A stretch of DNA of 34,109 bases from assembly GCA_943357105.1 (NCBI GenBank), contig CALRGC010000005.1, forward strand, positions 24,310 through 58,418, read 5' to 3'. The position numbers were made by a program, and so were the translations under genes. The notes beneath the pieces are model-generated. The model was not told the DNA's origin, searched no databases, and saw nothing but the letters and a program-made list of their open reading frames with translations. The stretch is from Candidatus Magasanikiibacteriota bacterium (GTDB lineage: Bacteria; Patescibacteriota; Patescibacteriia; Magasanikbacterales; GWA2-37-8). Positions within the stretch are counted from its first letter, which is position 1, and each line of letters begins with the position of its first letter. This document shows positions 8,322-24,578 of the stretch, one piece after another.

Positions 8322-8426
8322 ATTTTATTTTCATTTTAAACGATTATATCATTTTCTAAATAAATTCGCAATTTAATTATTTATGTAAAAAATAAAATAT
8401 CTTTTTTAAGATATTTTTAATTTATA

Positions 8427-8448
8427 AGTGGGTGCCCGAGCGCCCACT
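8427..8448 (-). terminator. GC-rich hairpin at the 3' end of the Cys-rich mini-gene
   Basis: AGTGGGTGC-CCGA-GCGCCCACT stem with one G.U; neighbouring AT palindrome AAAATATCTT/AAGATATTTT (8394-8417). Confidence 0.55.
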
Positions 8449-8493
8449 ATGGACAGAGCCATAGAGAACGCGCGGGGTTTGACCTTGTGCCGA

Positions 8494-8718
8494 TCAGCCG
8501 ACGCACAGGTGTGCGCTACCGGGGCCGACTTGGCCACTGTAGCAGAAGGTGGCGGTGTCGTTTCCGCCGTCCACCAACAGTGGCACCGGGCCGATGCTAC
8601 GCGAGTCTTTGCAGCGCCGGCAATCGCAATCGCGATCGCCGACCTGCTTGTCGGTCTTGTGCTTGCAGTTGGGGCAAGTTTTTTCCTCAGTCTGACACTG
8701 GCATGCGGGGCAGATCAT
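8494..8718 (-). CDS. Cys-rich (putative multi-zinc-ribbon) mini-protein in a GC-rich islet
   Basis: Start at MICPACQCQTEEKTCPNCKHKTDKQVGDRDCDCRRCKD..., preceded on the minus strand by a strong SD (aaaggaggggccATG); the ORF track extends it further upstream. Confidence 0.65.
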   Translation of the reverse strand: MICPACQCQTEEKTCPNCKHKTDKQVGDRDCDCRRCKDSRSIGPVPLLVDGGNDTATFCYSGQVGPGSAHLCVG

Positions 8719-8762
8719 GGCCCCTCCTTTGAAACTCTCGCCACATCCGGCAAGGTGCCACG

Positions 8763-8791
8763 AATATATCATATTTTACTTTAAAAGTCAA
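8763..8791 (-). promoter_or_regulatory. promoter for the Cys-rich mini-gene
   Basis: Minus strand TTGACT, 17 nt spacer, TATATT. Confidence 0.6.
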
Positions 8792-10115: not shown

Positions 10116-11480
10116 TAAAAACTCAAACCAAAAATTGCTCTCAGATGATTGCGTTGAAAAATTTCAAAACAATCATCTGGTTGTAACGGAAAGAACTTTG
10201 ACAACTTAATAGGTAAATCAACGCAAAAATAGGGTAGGAAATATTTAATATTTCCCAATATAAAAATACCGCAAAGCACAATTAAGTGTTTTTGCCGTAC
10301 GCAATTTCAACAAGTGCACATGGTGGATGCCTTGACACTAAAAGACGAAGAAGGACGTTGCAGGGTGCGAAAAGTTCCGGAGAGGTCCCAAGCAACCATT
10401 GACCCGGAAATATCCCAATGGGGAAACCCTCGTGCTGATGAAGCACGAATCATTCACTGAATACATAGGTGGATGAAGTAAACCTGGTGAAGTGAAACAT
10501 CTCAGTAACCAGAGGAAAAGAAATCGAAGAGATTCCCTTAGTAGTGGCGAGCGAAAAGGGAAGAGTCTAAACTTTATAAATGTTGTTGCAGTGATTGGTT
10601 GGTCTCACGATTAACTTTGAACTGTAATTTAAAGAGATAGGTCGTTGTTTATAGAGTGTTGTAAGTCGTTAACGCTAATTTCCTACAAAATTAGGCGTCT
10701 AAATTGTTTAATAGCAGAATGTCTCTGGAAAGAGCAACCAAAGCAGGTGAAAGTCCTTTACGCGAAATTAAACAGTTTAACGTGGTTAGCGCACTTGAGT
10801 AGGGCGGGACTCGTGAAATTCCGTCTGAATTTGGGCCGACTATGGTCTAAGACTAAATACTTTTAGTGATCGATAGTGAATTAGTACCATGAGGGAAAGG
10901 TGAAAAGTAGCCCGGAGAGGGCAATGAAATAGTATCTGAAACCGTGTGCTTACAAAGAGCCGGAGCCCGCAAGGGTGACGGTGTTCCTATTGAAGAATGA
11001 GCCTGCGAGTGTGCTGTATGTCGTCGCTTAAGGACCTCTGGTCCGAAGGCATAGCGAAAGCGAGTCTGAAAGGGCGAAATTAAGATGGCATGCACATAAC
11101 CCGAAACCGGGTGGTCAACCCATGACCAGGTTGAACCTTGTAGAAATACAAGGGGAGGACCGAACTCACGAGCCGTGCAACACTCGGAGATGAGTTGTGG
11201 GTAGTAGAGAAATTCTAATCGAACTCGGTGATAGCTGGTTTTCCTCGAAATAGCTCTAGGGCTAGCCTTGCGCGTTCCTAATGCTGGTAGAGCACTGGAT
11301 GAGAATTGGGTCCTTCGGGATACCGTTTTCAATCAAACTCCGAATGGCATTGGTCACTAGCGCAGGAGTCAGACGGTGACGGCGAAGCGCCATCGTCAAA
11401 AGGGGAACAGCCCAGATCGCAAGTTAAGGTCCCTAAATCTATGTTAAGTGTAAAAGGTGGTGATAATTCTTATACAACCA

Positions 11481-11512
<32 letters not shown>

Positions 11513-12287
11513 GATAGCGTAACAGCTCACTGGTCAAGAGTTTTCGCGCCGAAAATGTACCGGGGCTCAAACATAGTACCGAAGCTGCGAAATGTAGTAT
11601 TCCTTCGGGAATATTACTTTGGTAGAGGAACGTTCTTAACGCACTGAAGCTCCAGACGCGAGTCAGAGTGGAGTGTTAAGAAGCGAGAATGCAGGCATAA
11701 GTAGCAAAAATCAAGGTGAGAATCCTTGACGCTGAAAATCTAAGGTTTCCTGGGCAACGAGAATCGTCCCAGGGTTAGTCGATCCTAAGGCCAGGCCGAA
11801 AGGCGTAACCGATGGAAGAGATGGTTAATATTCCATCACTGCGTATGGTTTGGTTTATAGTGCGCATTTTTGAAGCAGCAGCGTGACTAGAATTGCACGC
11901 GGCGCAAGCCAAAGACAAAGCCTTCGGGTGGAGTCAATTACTGTGGAGAATGTGCCCAGAAAAGCTATAAATCGTTAAGCCATAAGCAATCGTACCGGAA
12001 ACCGACACAGGTAGATAGGTCGAGAAGACCAAGGCGAACGAGAGAACCTTCGTTAAGGAACTCTGCAATACAGCGGCCGTAACTTAGGGATAAGGCCCGC
12101 CCCTCGAAAGAGGGGTTACAACAAATGACCCACTGCGACTGTTTACCAAAAACACAGCTCCCTGCAAAAGCGTAAGCTAAAGTATAGGGGGTGATGCCTG
12201 GCCAGTGTCAGAACGTTAAGAGGAGAGGTGCAAGCCTTGAATCGAAGCGCTGATGAACGCCGGCGGTAACTATAACCGTCCTAAGGT

Positions 12288-12574
12288 AGTGAATTCAAGT
12301 AATTGAGTCCACTAGGATTGGGACGAATTATAGCAAATAGTAAACAGTGCAAACATGATCCAGCAGAAGATCATACATCAACAGCCATTAAAAAAGCTGC
12401 CTTACTCACAGTAATGTGAGAGATAATCCGATCATAGCTATATGCTGGGAAATCCAGAAATGGACAATCAGCAGGGAAGACTTTGATTCATTTCAAAGAA
12501 CCCTCAGAGACCAAACGCTATGCTCCTAAGCAATTAGGATGAAGATAGAGTCCGTCGTAATAAAGGAAACGAAG
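12288..12574 (+). other. group I intron (ORF-less, 287 nt) in 23S at the E. coli-1931-type site
   Basis: Interrupts ctaaggt|agcgaaattcc; core elements P-like gctgggaaatcc, Q-like aatcagcagggaag, R-like ctcagagaccaaacg, S-like aagatagagtcc; U at the 5' exon end, G at the intron end. Confidence 0.9.
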
Positions 12575-13110
12575 AGCGAAATTCCTTGTCGGGCGAGTTC
12601 CGACCTGCACGAATGGCATAACGATGGTGGGACTGTCTCAACGAAGGACTCGGTGAAATTGCAAGGGAGGTGAAGATGCCTCCTACCCGTAACTAGACGA
12701 AAAGACCCCGTGAAGCTTTACTACAACTTGCTATTGATATAAGGATATTTATGTTCAGCGTAGGTGGGACCCGCAAGGGGCCAATGAGACACCACCCTTA
12801 AATATTTTTATGTCTAATTTTCTCCCATGAATCTGGGATAGAAGACAGTGGCTGGTGGGTAGTTTAACTGGGGCGGTTGCCTCCTAAAATGTAACGGAGG
12901 CGTTTACAAAGGTCAGCTTAGCTCGGATGGAAATCGAGCTGGACGCGCAAACGCAAAAGCTGGCTTTACTGCAAGGACTACGATCCGAGCAGTTACGAAA
13001 GTAGAAGTTAGTGAACCGACTACTCTTCATAGGAAGGTAGAAGATCAACGGATAAAAGCTACTCCGGGGATAACAGGCTGATCGCGCCCAATAGTCCACA
13101 TAGACGGCGC

Positions 13111-13151
<41 letters not shown>

Positions 13152-13182
13152 TAGAAGGTCCCAAGGGTTTGGCTGTTCGCCA

Positions 13183-13215
<33 letters not shown>

Positions 13216-13938
13216 AAATAACATTGCGTTACACCATAGAAATATGGTAGTATAGTACTGACTCATAACGGTGAAACCCTACTACAAATTCGAACTGTAA
13301 GTAGAGGGCAATACCGTGGGAAGGTCAATTTATGGCAAAAATTTTCTCAACAACAAAAGCCTATGTTGCCGGATTTTTAGACGGCGATGGCTGTATAATG
13401 TTTCAGTTGGTGCGAAGGAAAGATTATATCTACGGATTTCAGATTCGCGCGAGTATTGTTTTTTATCAAAAAACCATGCATCGCGACCACCTTGAGTGGA
13501 TCAAAAGAATTTTGAAACACGGATATATTCGAGATCGCAACGACGGCATGACAGAGTACACTATCGTTGGTTTTAAATCGGTAATTGAGGTCTTGAAATT
13601 TTTGCAACCATATATAAAAATGAAACGCGAACATGTAGAAGTCGCTTTGAAAATAAGCGCTATCATGTCCGGTAAATTTACCATTGAAAAAATGGTCAAA
13701 GCCGCGCGGTTCGTAGATCAATATCAGCAATTGAATTACTCAAAAAAAAGAGTAAACACTTCCAAAGTATTGATCGATTTTTTAGCGGAACATAAATTGT
13801 ACCCCTGTAACGACTGATCTCGATAATTTCGAGACGACGGATACCACGAAAAGTATCTGTAACACGTCAGCCCCTCCTTGGTGTTGTCCAAGAGGGTGAA
13901 GGTATAGTCTGTGCCATTAGTAATAATGGAATAACACG
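13216..13938 (+). other. group I intron (723 nt) in 23S at the E. coli-2593-type site, with homing endonuclease ORF
   Basis: Interrupts ggttcagaacgt|cgtgagacag; P/Q-like acggtgaaacccta and aataccgtgggaagg, R-like taacgactga, S-like aaggtatagtctg; terminal G. Confidence 0.92.
13332..13817 (+). CDS. LAGLIDADG homing endonuclease, I-CreI-like, single motif
   Basis: AYVAGFLDGDGCIMFQLV motif; GYIRDRNDGMTEYTIVG, LQPYIKMKREHVEVALKI and FVDQYQQLNYSKKRVNTSKVLIDFLAEHK parallel I-CreI segments. Confidence 0.93.
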   Translation: MAKIFSTTKAYVAGFLDGDGCIMFQLVRRKDYIYGFQIRASIVFYQKTMHRDHLEWIKRILKHGYIRDRNDGMTEYTIVGFKSVIEVLKFLQPYIKMKREHVEVALKISAIMSGKFTIEKMVKAARFVDQYQQLNYSKKRVNTSKVLIDFLAEHKLYPCND

Positions 13939-23587: not shown

Positions 23588-23917
23588 ATGAACATTAAAA
23601 AAACTGAAAAACAAACAGTGGGGATAAAAATATCGGTAGAGGAGGAAGGGGTAGAGTTGGGAAGAGCTTGGCTATATCTGGTATATAATGATCTGCATGC
23701 CGAACCTTATGGGTTACTTGAAGATGTGTTTGTAAATGAAGATGTGCGTGGCCAGGGTGTGGGCAATGAATTGCTGAAAAATGCGATAGCGGAAGCTAAG
23801 AGTAAAGGCTGTTATAAATTAATTGGCACCAGCCGAAAGAGCCGAGAAAATGTGCACGCTTGGTATAAGAAATTAGGATTTGAGGATTATGGATTAGAGT
23901 TTAGAATGGATCTTTAA
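23588..23917 (+). CDS. GNAT-family acetyltransferase
   Basis: LLEDVFVNEDVRGQGVGNELLKNAIAEAKSKGCYKLIGTSRKSRENVHAWYKKLGFEDYG. Confidence 0.9.
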   Translation: MNIKKTEKQTVGIKISVEEEGVELGRAWLYLVYNDLHAEPYGLLEDVFVNEDVRGQGVGNELLKNAIAEAKSKGCYKLIGTSRKSRENVHAWYKKLGFEDYGLEFRMDL

Positions 23918-24024: not shown

Positions 24025-24279
24025 TCAACCCTGGAAGCACTGCTGAGCTTCGGCGGCGGAAACCGAGCTGGGCAAGCTTGCGTTCATGGTCATCCGAAAC
24101 TGGCCGGAGCGGGCGATTTCGCCACGCTTGGCATCGAGCGCCACCCACACGTACCAGGGCGGAGTGTCTTCGCCGGGGATCTGCCAGCGTTCGAAGATGA
24201 AGACGCCAGTCATGTCGACCCGCGCCAACAGTTCGGACAGTTCGCTTTTCTGGGAATCTGCAAAACGACGAGCAGCCAT
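24025..24279 (-). CDS. GC-rich mini-ORF of unknown function, 84 aa from the internal ATG
   Basis: MAARRFADSQKSELSELLARVDMTGVFIFERWQIPGEDTPPWYVWVALDAKRGEIARSGQFRMTMNASLPSSVSAAEAQQCFQG; SD-like gaggtg before ATG; GC-rich codon choice unlike neighbours. Confidence 0.6.
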   Translation of the reverse strand: MAARRFADSQKSELSELLARVDMTGVFIFERWQIPGEDTPPWYVWVALDAKRGEIARSGQFRMTMNASLPSSVSAAEAQQCFQG

Positions 24280-24372: not shown

Positions 24373-24403
24373 AAAAAACTGTTATCCCAAAGAAAGATAA
24401 CAG
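24373..24403 (-). terminator. rho-independent terminator of the SAM riboswitch expression platform
   Basis: Minus strand CTGTTATC-tttctttgg-GATAACAG followed by TTTTTT. Confidence 0.85.
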
Positions 24404-24435
24404 ACTACAAGCAAACTGTTCCCGTTTAAAACGGG

Positions 24436-24530
24436 CGAATCTTTCCCTAAATAGGGTCGGAATTAGCACCCTGGAGGGGGTTGCTGGGTGGTCGTAGGGC
24501 CGAATCCCTCGCACCGCTCTAGATAAATTT
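24436..24530 (-). promoter_or_regulatory. SAM-I-type riboswitch aptamer
   Basis: Minus strand atctAGAGCGGTGCGAGGGATTCGGCCCTACGACCACCCAGCAACCCCCTCCAGGGTGCTAATTCCGACCCTATTTAGGGAAAGAT: matches AGAG..GAGGGA..GGCCC..GCAACC..GGTGCTAATTCC; P2 loop TCGG complements J3/4 CCGA (pseudoknot); P4 CCCTatttAGGG. Confidence 0.85.
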
Positions 24531-24578
24531 TCCAACTAATATTATACTAACGTAAGTAATTAAAATTGTCAATATCCT

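Follow-up and report, generated by a model that had tools for sequence, protein, structure and literature searches.

Organization of the Locus

The window is the whole analysed stretch of 34,109 nucleotides from the focal genome (G000). This genome, tiny and from an uncultured member of the Magasanikbacteria, comprises 925 kb in 34 contigs. A GNAT gene (23588-23917) and a methyltransferase gene of family PF10672 (24579-25472) are both encoded on its plus strand, and the interval between them carries a series of features read from the minus strand. The first is a promoter-like sequence, TTGACA-17-TAGTAT (24572-24544), matching the consensus at 10 of 12 positions, with a TATAAT overlapping at 24546-24541; six promoter-like sites were counted in the region, where shuffles would lead one to expect 1.3. 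It is followed by a SAM-I aptamer with its expression platform and, after the platform terminator, by a long 5' leader hairpin of 66 nt (24370-24305; -36.2 kcal/mol), which leads into GGTCGGATCTCAACTTTCCCGACC. None of 200 shuffles was as stable as this hairpin (z -6.5). A mini-ORF of 84 aa (24279-24025) begins with ATG at 24279, preceded by the SD sequence GAGGTG (24288-24283), and has a GC content of 61% and a GC3 of 73%, compared to about 40% around it. Behind the ORF, a GC-rich 3' hairpin, ACCCGACCGGCGCGCA..TGTCCGGTCGGGT (24006-23971), and a second terminator (23957-23930) close the mini-ORF transcript ahead of the convergent GNAT gene.

As the GNAT and methyltransferase genes lie on the plus strand, the minus-strand transcript cannot serve either of them, and with no other minus-strand gene before the terminator at 23957-23930 the mini-ORF is the sole client. 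An earlier, sequence-only reading of this DNA had named the mini-ORF as the only minus-strand ORF downstream and had the riboswitch facing it and not a methionine gene. Both points hold; metK of the focal genome was found on a different contig, without a Rfam SAM riboswitch match.

GC-rich islets are not confined to this locus. In 398 kb sampled from the focal genome (39-40% GC) we noted about ten other ORFan-looking islets of 58-66% GC, e.g., L051:2733-3488, L052:14302-15150, L058:14992-16243, L060:9275-9766, L062:18449-19225, L064:3746-4648, and one in the window at about 8420-8770. Several possess their own promoter, 5' leader hairpin, SD site, and strong 3' terminator. Inspected by eye, one encodes a protein resembling 2-oxoglutarate/isopenicillin-N-synthase-type oxygenases, one a methyltransferase-like protein, and one a Cys-rich, probably secreted protein. 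The mini-gene is one more islet of this general kind, distinguished from the others by its riboswitch. Elsewhere in the window, a group I intron match (RF00028, 55.6 bits, 12379-12565) was located inside the 23S rRNA gene (10300-13294).

The SAM-I Aptamer

The Rfam scan assigned 24529-24434 of the minus strand to RF00162 (SAM-I, S-box) with 50.3 bits, above the gathering score of 44.4. The match spans the full model, 1-108, with an E value of 7.5e-9 for the whole window, and is the sole SAM-I match in a genome estimated to be 98.8% complete. The P1 helix, which would close the four-way junction, is formed by ATCT (24524-24521) and AGAT (24442-24439), and the P2 loop pairs with J3/4 in a pseudoknot, TCGG (24503-24500) with CCGA (24460-24457). 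The pseudoknot shows strong covariation: among the 44 aptamers of relatives parseable by the pattern, 174 of 176 pseudoknot positions were paired, compared to a shuffle mean of 135.3 and a maximum of 146. Judged by its anatomy, the aptamer is a new member of the known riboswitch class SAM-I, and the regulator has the build of a textbook SAM OFF switch.

P1 has three consecutive model pairs, or four when the inner U-A is counted, against a mode of five among 109 aptamers of the class, and it is one of the weakest in that set. Lengths of 4-5 bp are normal for the class, and 4 bp are common in front of metK also, so that a short P1 is the usual condition there, with the focal genus at the low end.

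The Expression Platform

Downstream of the aptamer, an antiterminator (24445-24392) and an intrinsic terminator (24403-24373) are both complete and mutually exclusive. The antiterminator pairs AACAG (24420-24416) with CTGTT (24403-24399), and is extended by GAAAGAT (24445-24439) with ATCTTTC (24398-24392). The two helices are continuous around a small enclosed hairpin, CCCGTTTTAAACGGG (24435-24421). The 5' arm of the antiterminator overlaps the 3' strand of P1; on the other side, ATCTTTC is contained in the 5' arm and loop of the terminator, and CTGTT sits just before that heptamer. The terminator itself pairs CTGTTATC (24403-24396) with GATAACAG (24386-24379) and runs out into TTTTTT. The anatomy put forward in the sequence-only reading, i.e., a SAM-I-type core with the TCGG/CCGA pseudoknot, a short ATCT/AGAT P1, the AACAG/CTGTT antiterminator, the terminator, and a possible upstream promoter, was recovered in all its parts on the minus strand; the GAAAGAT/ATCTTTC extension had been overlooked in that reading.

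Ensemble energies were calculated with ViennaRNA, leaving out the pseudoknot and SAM. For a transcript stopping short of the terminator 3' arm, the antiterminator ensemble reached -44.5 kcal/mol and the P1 ensemble -38.7 kcal/mol; for the full transcript the terminator was favoured, with -52.0 against -49.6 kcal/mol. The preference for the antiterminator over P1, about 6 kcal/mol in these calculations, together with the weak P1 might mean that a high SAM level is needed to turn the switch.

The Same Site in Relatives of the Genus

In an independent MAG of the same genus, G003, the site carries the riboswitch, then its platform and a homologous mini-ORF, in the arrangement seen in the focal genome. 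The flanking genes are 94% (methyltransferase), 85% (GNAT), and 82% (cofD) identical to the focal ones. Aptamer and platform are about 90% identical to the focal sequence, and P1 is unchanged. The hairpin enclosed by the antiterminator shows a compensatory change from C-G to U-A, and the terminator is kept with a single change from U-A to U-G. The promoter-like site is kept as well. The mini-ORF of G003 has a GC content of 64%, and its product is 32% identical to the focal mini-protein (BLASTP E 2e-6). A second relative, G001, carries at the site a 97-codon GC-rich ORF behind a plain promoter similar to the focal one. The aptamer is missing; a hairpin resembling the terminator stem is still there, lacking a U tract. 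The G001 ORF resembles the focal one in frame, though weakly (z 4.5), and is a probable homolog. Equivalents of the leader hairpin and of the 3' hairpin were present in both G003 and G001. In a third member of the genus, G002, the islet is lacking and the GNAT and methyltransferase genes are adjacent, as they are in L008 and L013 from other genera.

The minus-oriented unit stands between genes that adjoin elsewhere, and so it looks inserted there. The comparison of the three relatives indicates that the genus has either acquired or lost SAM control in the course of its history, and the aptamer-less mini-gene of G001 that the gene can do without such control. Within the genus, the mini-protein is 28-32% identical (focal versus L028 and L004), and the flanking genes mostly 56-94%. 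Divergence of this degree at a constantly high GC3 would be explained either by very fast evolution or by repeated replacement.

These comparisons bear on several readings of the locus. The riboswitch could be a decaying relic, with a P1 too short to work, the SAM response lost, and the mini-ORF a mere passenger; the sequence-only reading, too, had allowed for decay in view of the short P1. The three consecutive pairs of P1, and the lack of the aptamer in G001 and of the whole islet in G002, are in line with such decay. It is nevertheless unlikely, as G003 has the same P1 and a closely similar aptamer and platform with a compensatory change in the enclosed hairpin, both antiterminator and terminator arms are kept, and a P1 of this length, 4 bp with the inner U-A, is ordinary in the class, before metK too. 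The sequence-only reading had further left it open whether the mini-protein is a SAM-regulated client or the islet had replaced an original one. The conserved arrangement in G003 favours the former. Replacement finds no support at this site, where the leader hairpins, and the mini-gene with them, are shared with the aptamer-less G001. In the relatives inspected, the site showed no met or SAM-transporter gene, and an assembly artefact, also considered in that reading, is refuted by the independent MAGs.

The mini-ORF may also be no protein gene at all, the riboswitch then controlling a structured non-coding RNA made up of the leader and 3' hairpins. The stability of the leader hairpin would fit such an RNA, and so would the recognisable conservation of both hairpins in three genomes whose proteins are that dissimilar. 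Against this, the homology between the focal and G003 ORFs is in frame, with a z of 9.3 compared to 4.9 for the next best frame, the start codon has an SD site, GC3 lies at 72-78% in G000, G003, and G001, and similar leader hairpins also stand before other GC-rich ORFs of the genome, where long coding frames follow. We consider a non-coding RNA improbable, and the mini-ORF has the look of a protein-coding gene.

The Mini-Protein

The 84-aa product gave no significant match in the profile libraries of Pfam, NCBIfam, and PHROGs. Among PDB sequences the best E value was 1.2, among plasmids there was one weak partial match (E 0.4), and among phages and IMG/VR there was none. Searches of the order returned only the own genome, and searches of the class only the own genome and G001, both of which were part of the query alignment; the remaining hits, with E values of 0.004 or weaker, were taken as chance. 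An AlphaFold2 model built from two sequences shows an alpha-beta-beta-beta-alpha order at a mean pLDDT of 52, which is too poor for a fold search and gives no confident fold. By eye the protein is soluble-looking, with no signal peptide and no membrane segment. The mini-proteins of G008, G212, G263, and G178 have a similar look and were tried as one family with the focal one, but pairwise shuffles gave no support. Our best guess is a small cytosolic effector of SAM or methionine starvation.

SAM-I Aptamers and Their Clients Across the Class

Of the 25 genomes of the family, 9 carry SAM-I aptamers; in the order the figure is 21 of 86, and in the class sample 105 of 380. For 109 aptamers the downstream sequence was inspected and the first recognised gene taken as client; the calling was automatic, so that single cases may be wrong, while the count for metK is firm. 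The client was metK in 51 cases and another methionine/SAM-type gene in eight, and in about 50 no recognised methionine/SAM gene followed, often a small ORFan instead. SAM-hydroxide-adenosyltransferase-like clients were called four times (weak PF20257 support), nucleotidyltransferase/methionine-synthase-like fusions twice (weak Pfam matches), and MTHFR twice (PF02219). The remaining 50 comprised family A (4), the focal family (2), Zn-ribbon mini-proteins (3), the "GFIP" family (7), and 34 singletons, most of them outside the Pfam scan. Terminators followed 47 of 51 metK aptamers and 53 of 58 others, and by this similar frequency the non-metK switches look as intact as the metK ones. The 21 clients of at most 100 aa, picked by hand, exceeded their surroundings in GC by a mean of 0.115, versus 0.050 for metK (Mann-Whitney p 0.006, a statistic that ignores kinship of the genomes).

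Family A consists of mutually homologous proteins of 64-76 aa with the pattern P..P...YY..L......F..LSQ..RR (L040, L041, L042, L153). All four members are encoded directly behind SAM-I aptamers; their four genomes represent two families of the class, and no other convincing member was found in the 380 genomes. The "GFIP" proteins (GFIP...L.VFPFNVL, about 135-150 aa; L078, L095, L098, L111, L117, L152, L076) also stand behind SAM-I riboswitches, and at some loci a CxxC protein comes before them; Pfam and PHROGs gave no match for the members tried. At L105, L126, and L142 the position behind the riboswitch is taken by Zn-ribbon-like mini-proteins of 53-65 aa. At L025, L034, L043, and L044 the SAM-hydroxide-adenosyltransferase-like genes behind the riboswitch are GC-rich; if active, a SAM-degrading enzyme whose switch shuts it off just when SAM is abundant would present a paradox.

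The diversity of SAM-I clients in the class, and the frequency in the focal genome of GC-rich ORFan islets with their own promoters, could point to a riboswitch that arrived with a foreign GC-rich cassette and mainly silences it in SAM-replete cells, the gene having no role in the SAM economy. This explanation has some claim to attention, but we hold it doubtful, since G000 and G003 both retain the aptamer along with its client, and family A mini-proteins occur only with SAM-I aptamers. A tentative proposal, which we rate as a serious possibility somewhat short of probable, is that the class (Magasanikbacteria and their relatives) uses SAM-I riboswitches for a sizeable set of lineage-specific small ORFans, of several families and about 50-150 aa, which would serve a response to shortage of SAM or methionine that is not known from bacteria elsewhere and is possibly linked to dependence on host cells for methionine. 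In the literature searched, which included few subscription papers, no reports of SAM riboswitches in Patescibacteria or Magasanikbacteria were found; within this partial coverage, the client family and the recurrent small ORFan clients appear to be undescribed.

Proposed Mode of Action

We regard it as highly probable that the locus is a transcription-terminating (OFF) SAM-I riboswitch with a small, fast-evolving GC-rich gene as its only client. Sequence, structure, and conservation of the parts were followed directly, and SAM binding and switching we infer from the riboswitch family. Promoter, riboswitch, leader hairpin, ORF, 3' hairpin, and terminator would act as one unit. With SAM scarce, GAAAGAT and AACAG would pair with CTGTTATCTTTC, the terminator would be blocked, and RNA polymerase would read past the leader hairpin into the ORF. 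With SAM plentiful, the ligand would close P1, CTGTTATC would be freed, and transcription would stop at about 24373 as the terminator forms. The mini-protein would then, as a best guess, be needed when SAM or methionine runs low.

Riboswitches point to the role of genes whose function is not known. With about half of the sampled SAM-I switches of the class lacking a recognised methionine gene, they mark dozens of often tiny proteins as probably SAM-responsive, and give a handle on SAM handling in reduced, probably host-dependent, and hardly culturable bacteria.

Comparison with Known Systems

The closest described model is the transcription-terminating S-box genes of Bacillus (RF00162). They have in common with the focal switch the aptamer core, P1-P4, and the pseudoknot of loop and J3/4, as well as an antiterminator overlapping the P1 3' strand and an intrinsic terminator; the standard logic, in which P1 and antiterminator compete for one strand, applies to both. 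The focal switch differs by its P1 of only 3-4 bp and by its client, which is an ORFan mini-gene and does not belong to methionine, cysteine, or SAM metabolism or transport, as members of the S-box regulon do. It is also the only such switch in its genome, and metK is not under it. The metK riboswitches of the class (e.g., G020, G042, G055) share aptamer family and terminators with the focal one, but serve SAM synthetase, the textbook target. Within the same genus, G004 (L022) carries a switch of the same class in front of metF (MTHFR, PF02219), a client that is likewise GC-rich (53% versus 32% around), but at another locus, with another P2 sequence, and with a known methionine gene. Family A (G047, G058, G076, G230) is alike in layout, its small ORFans standing directly behind the riboswitch as the focal mini-ORF does, although the proteins have no detectable sequence relation to the focal mini-protein.
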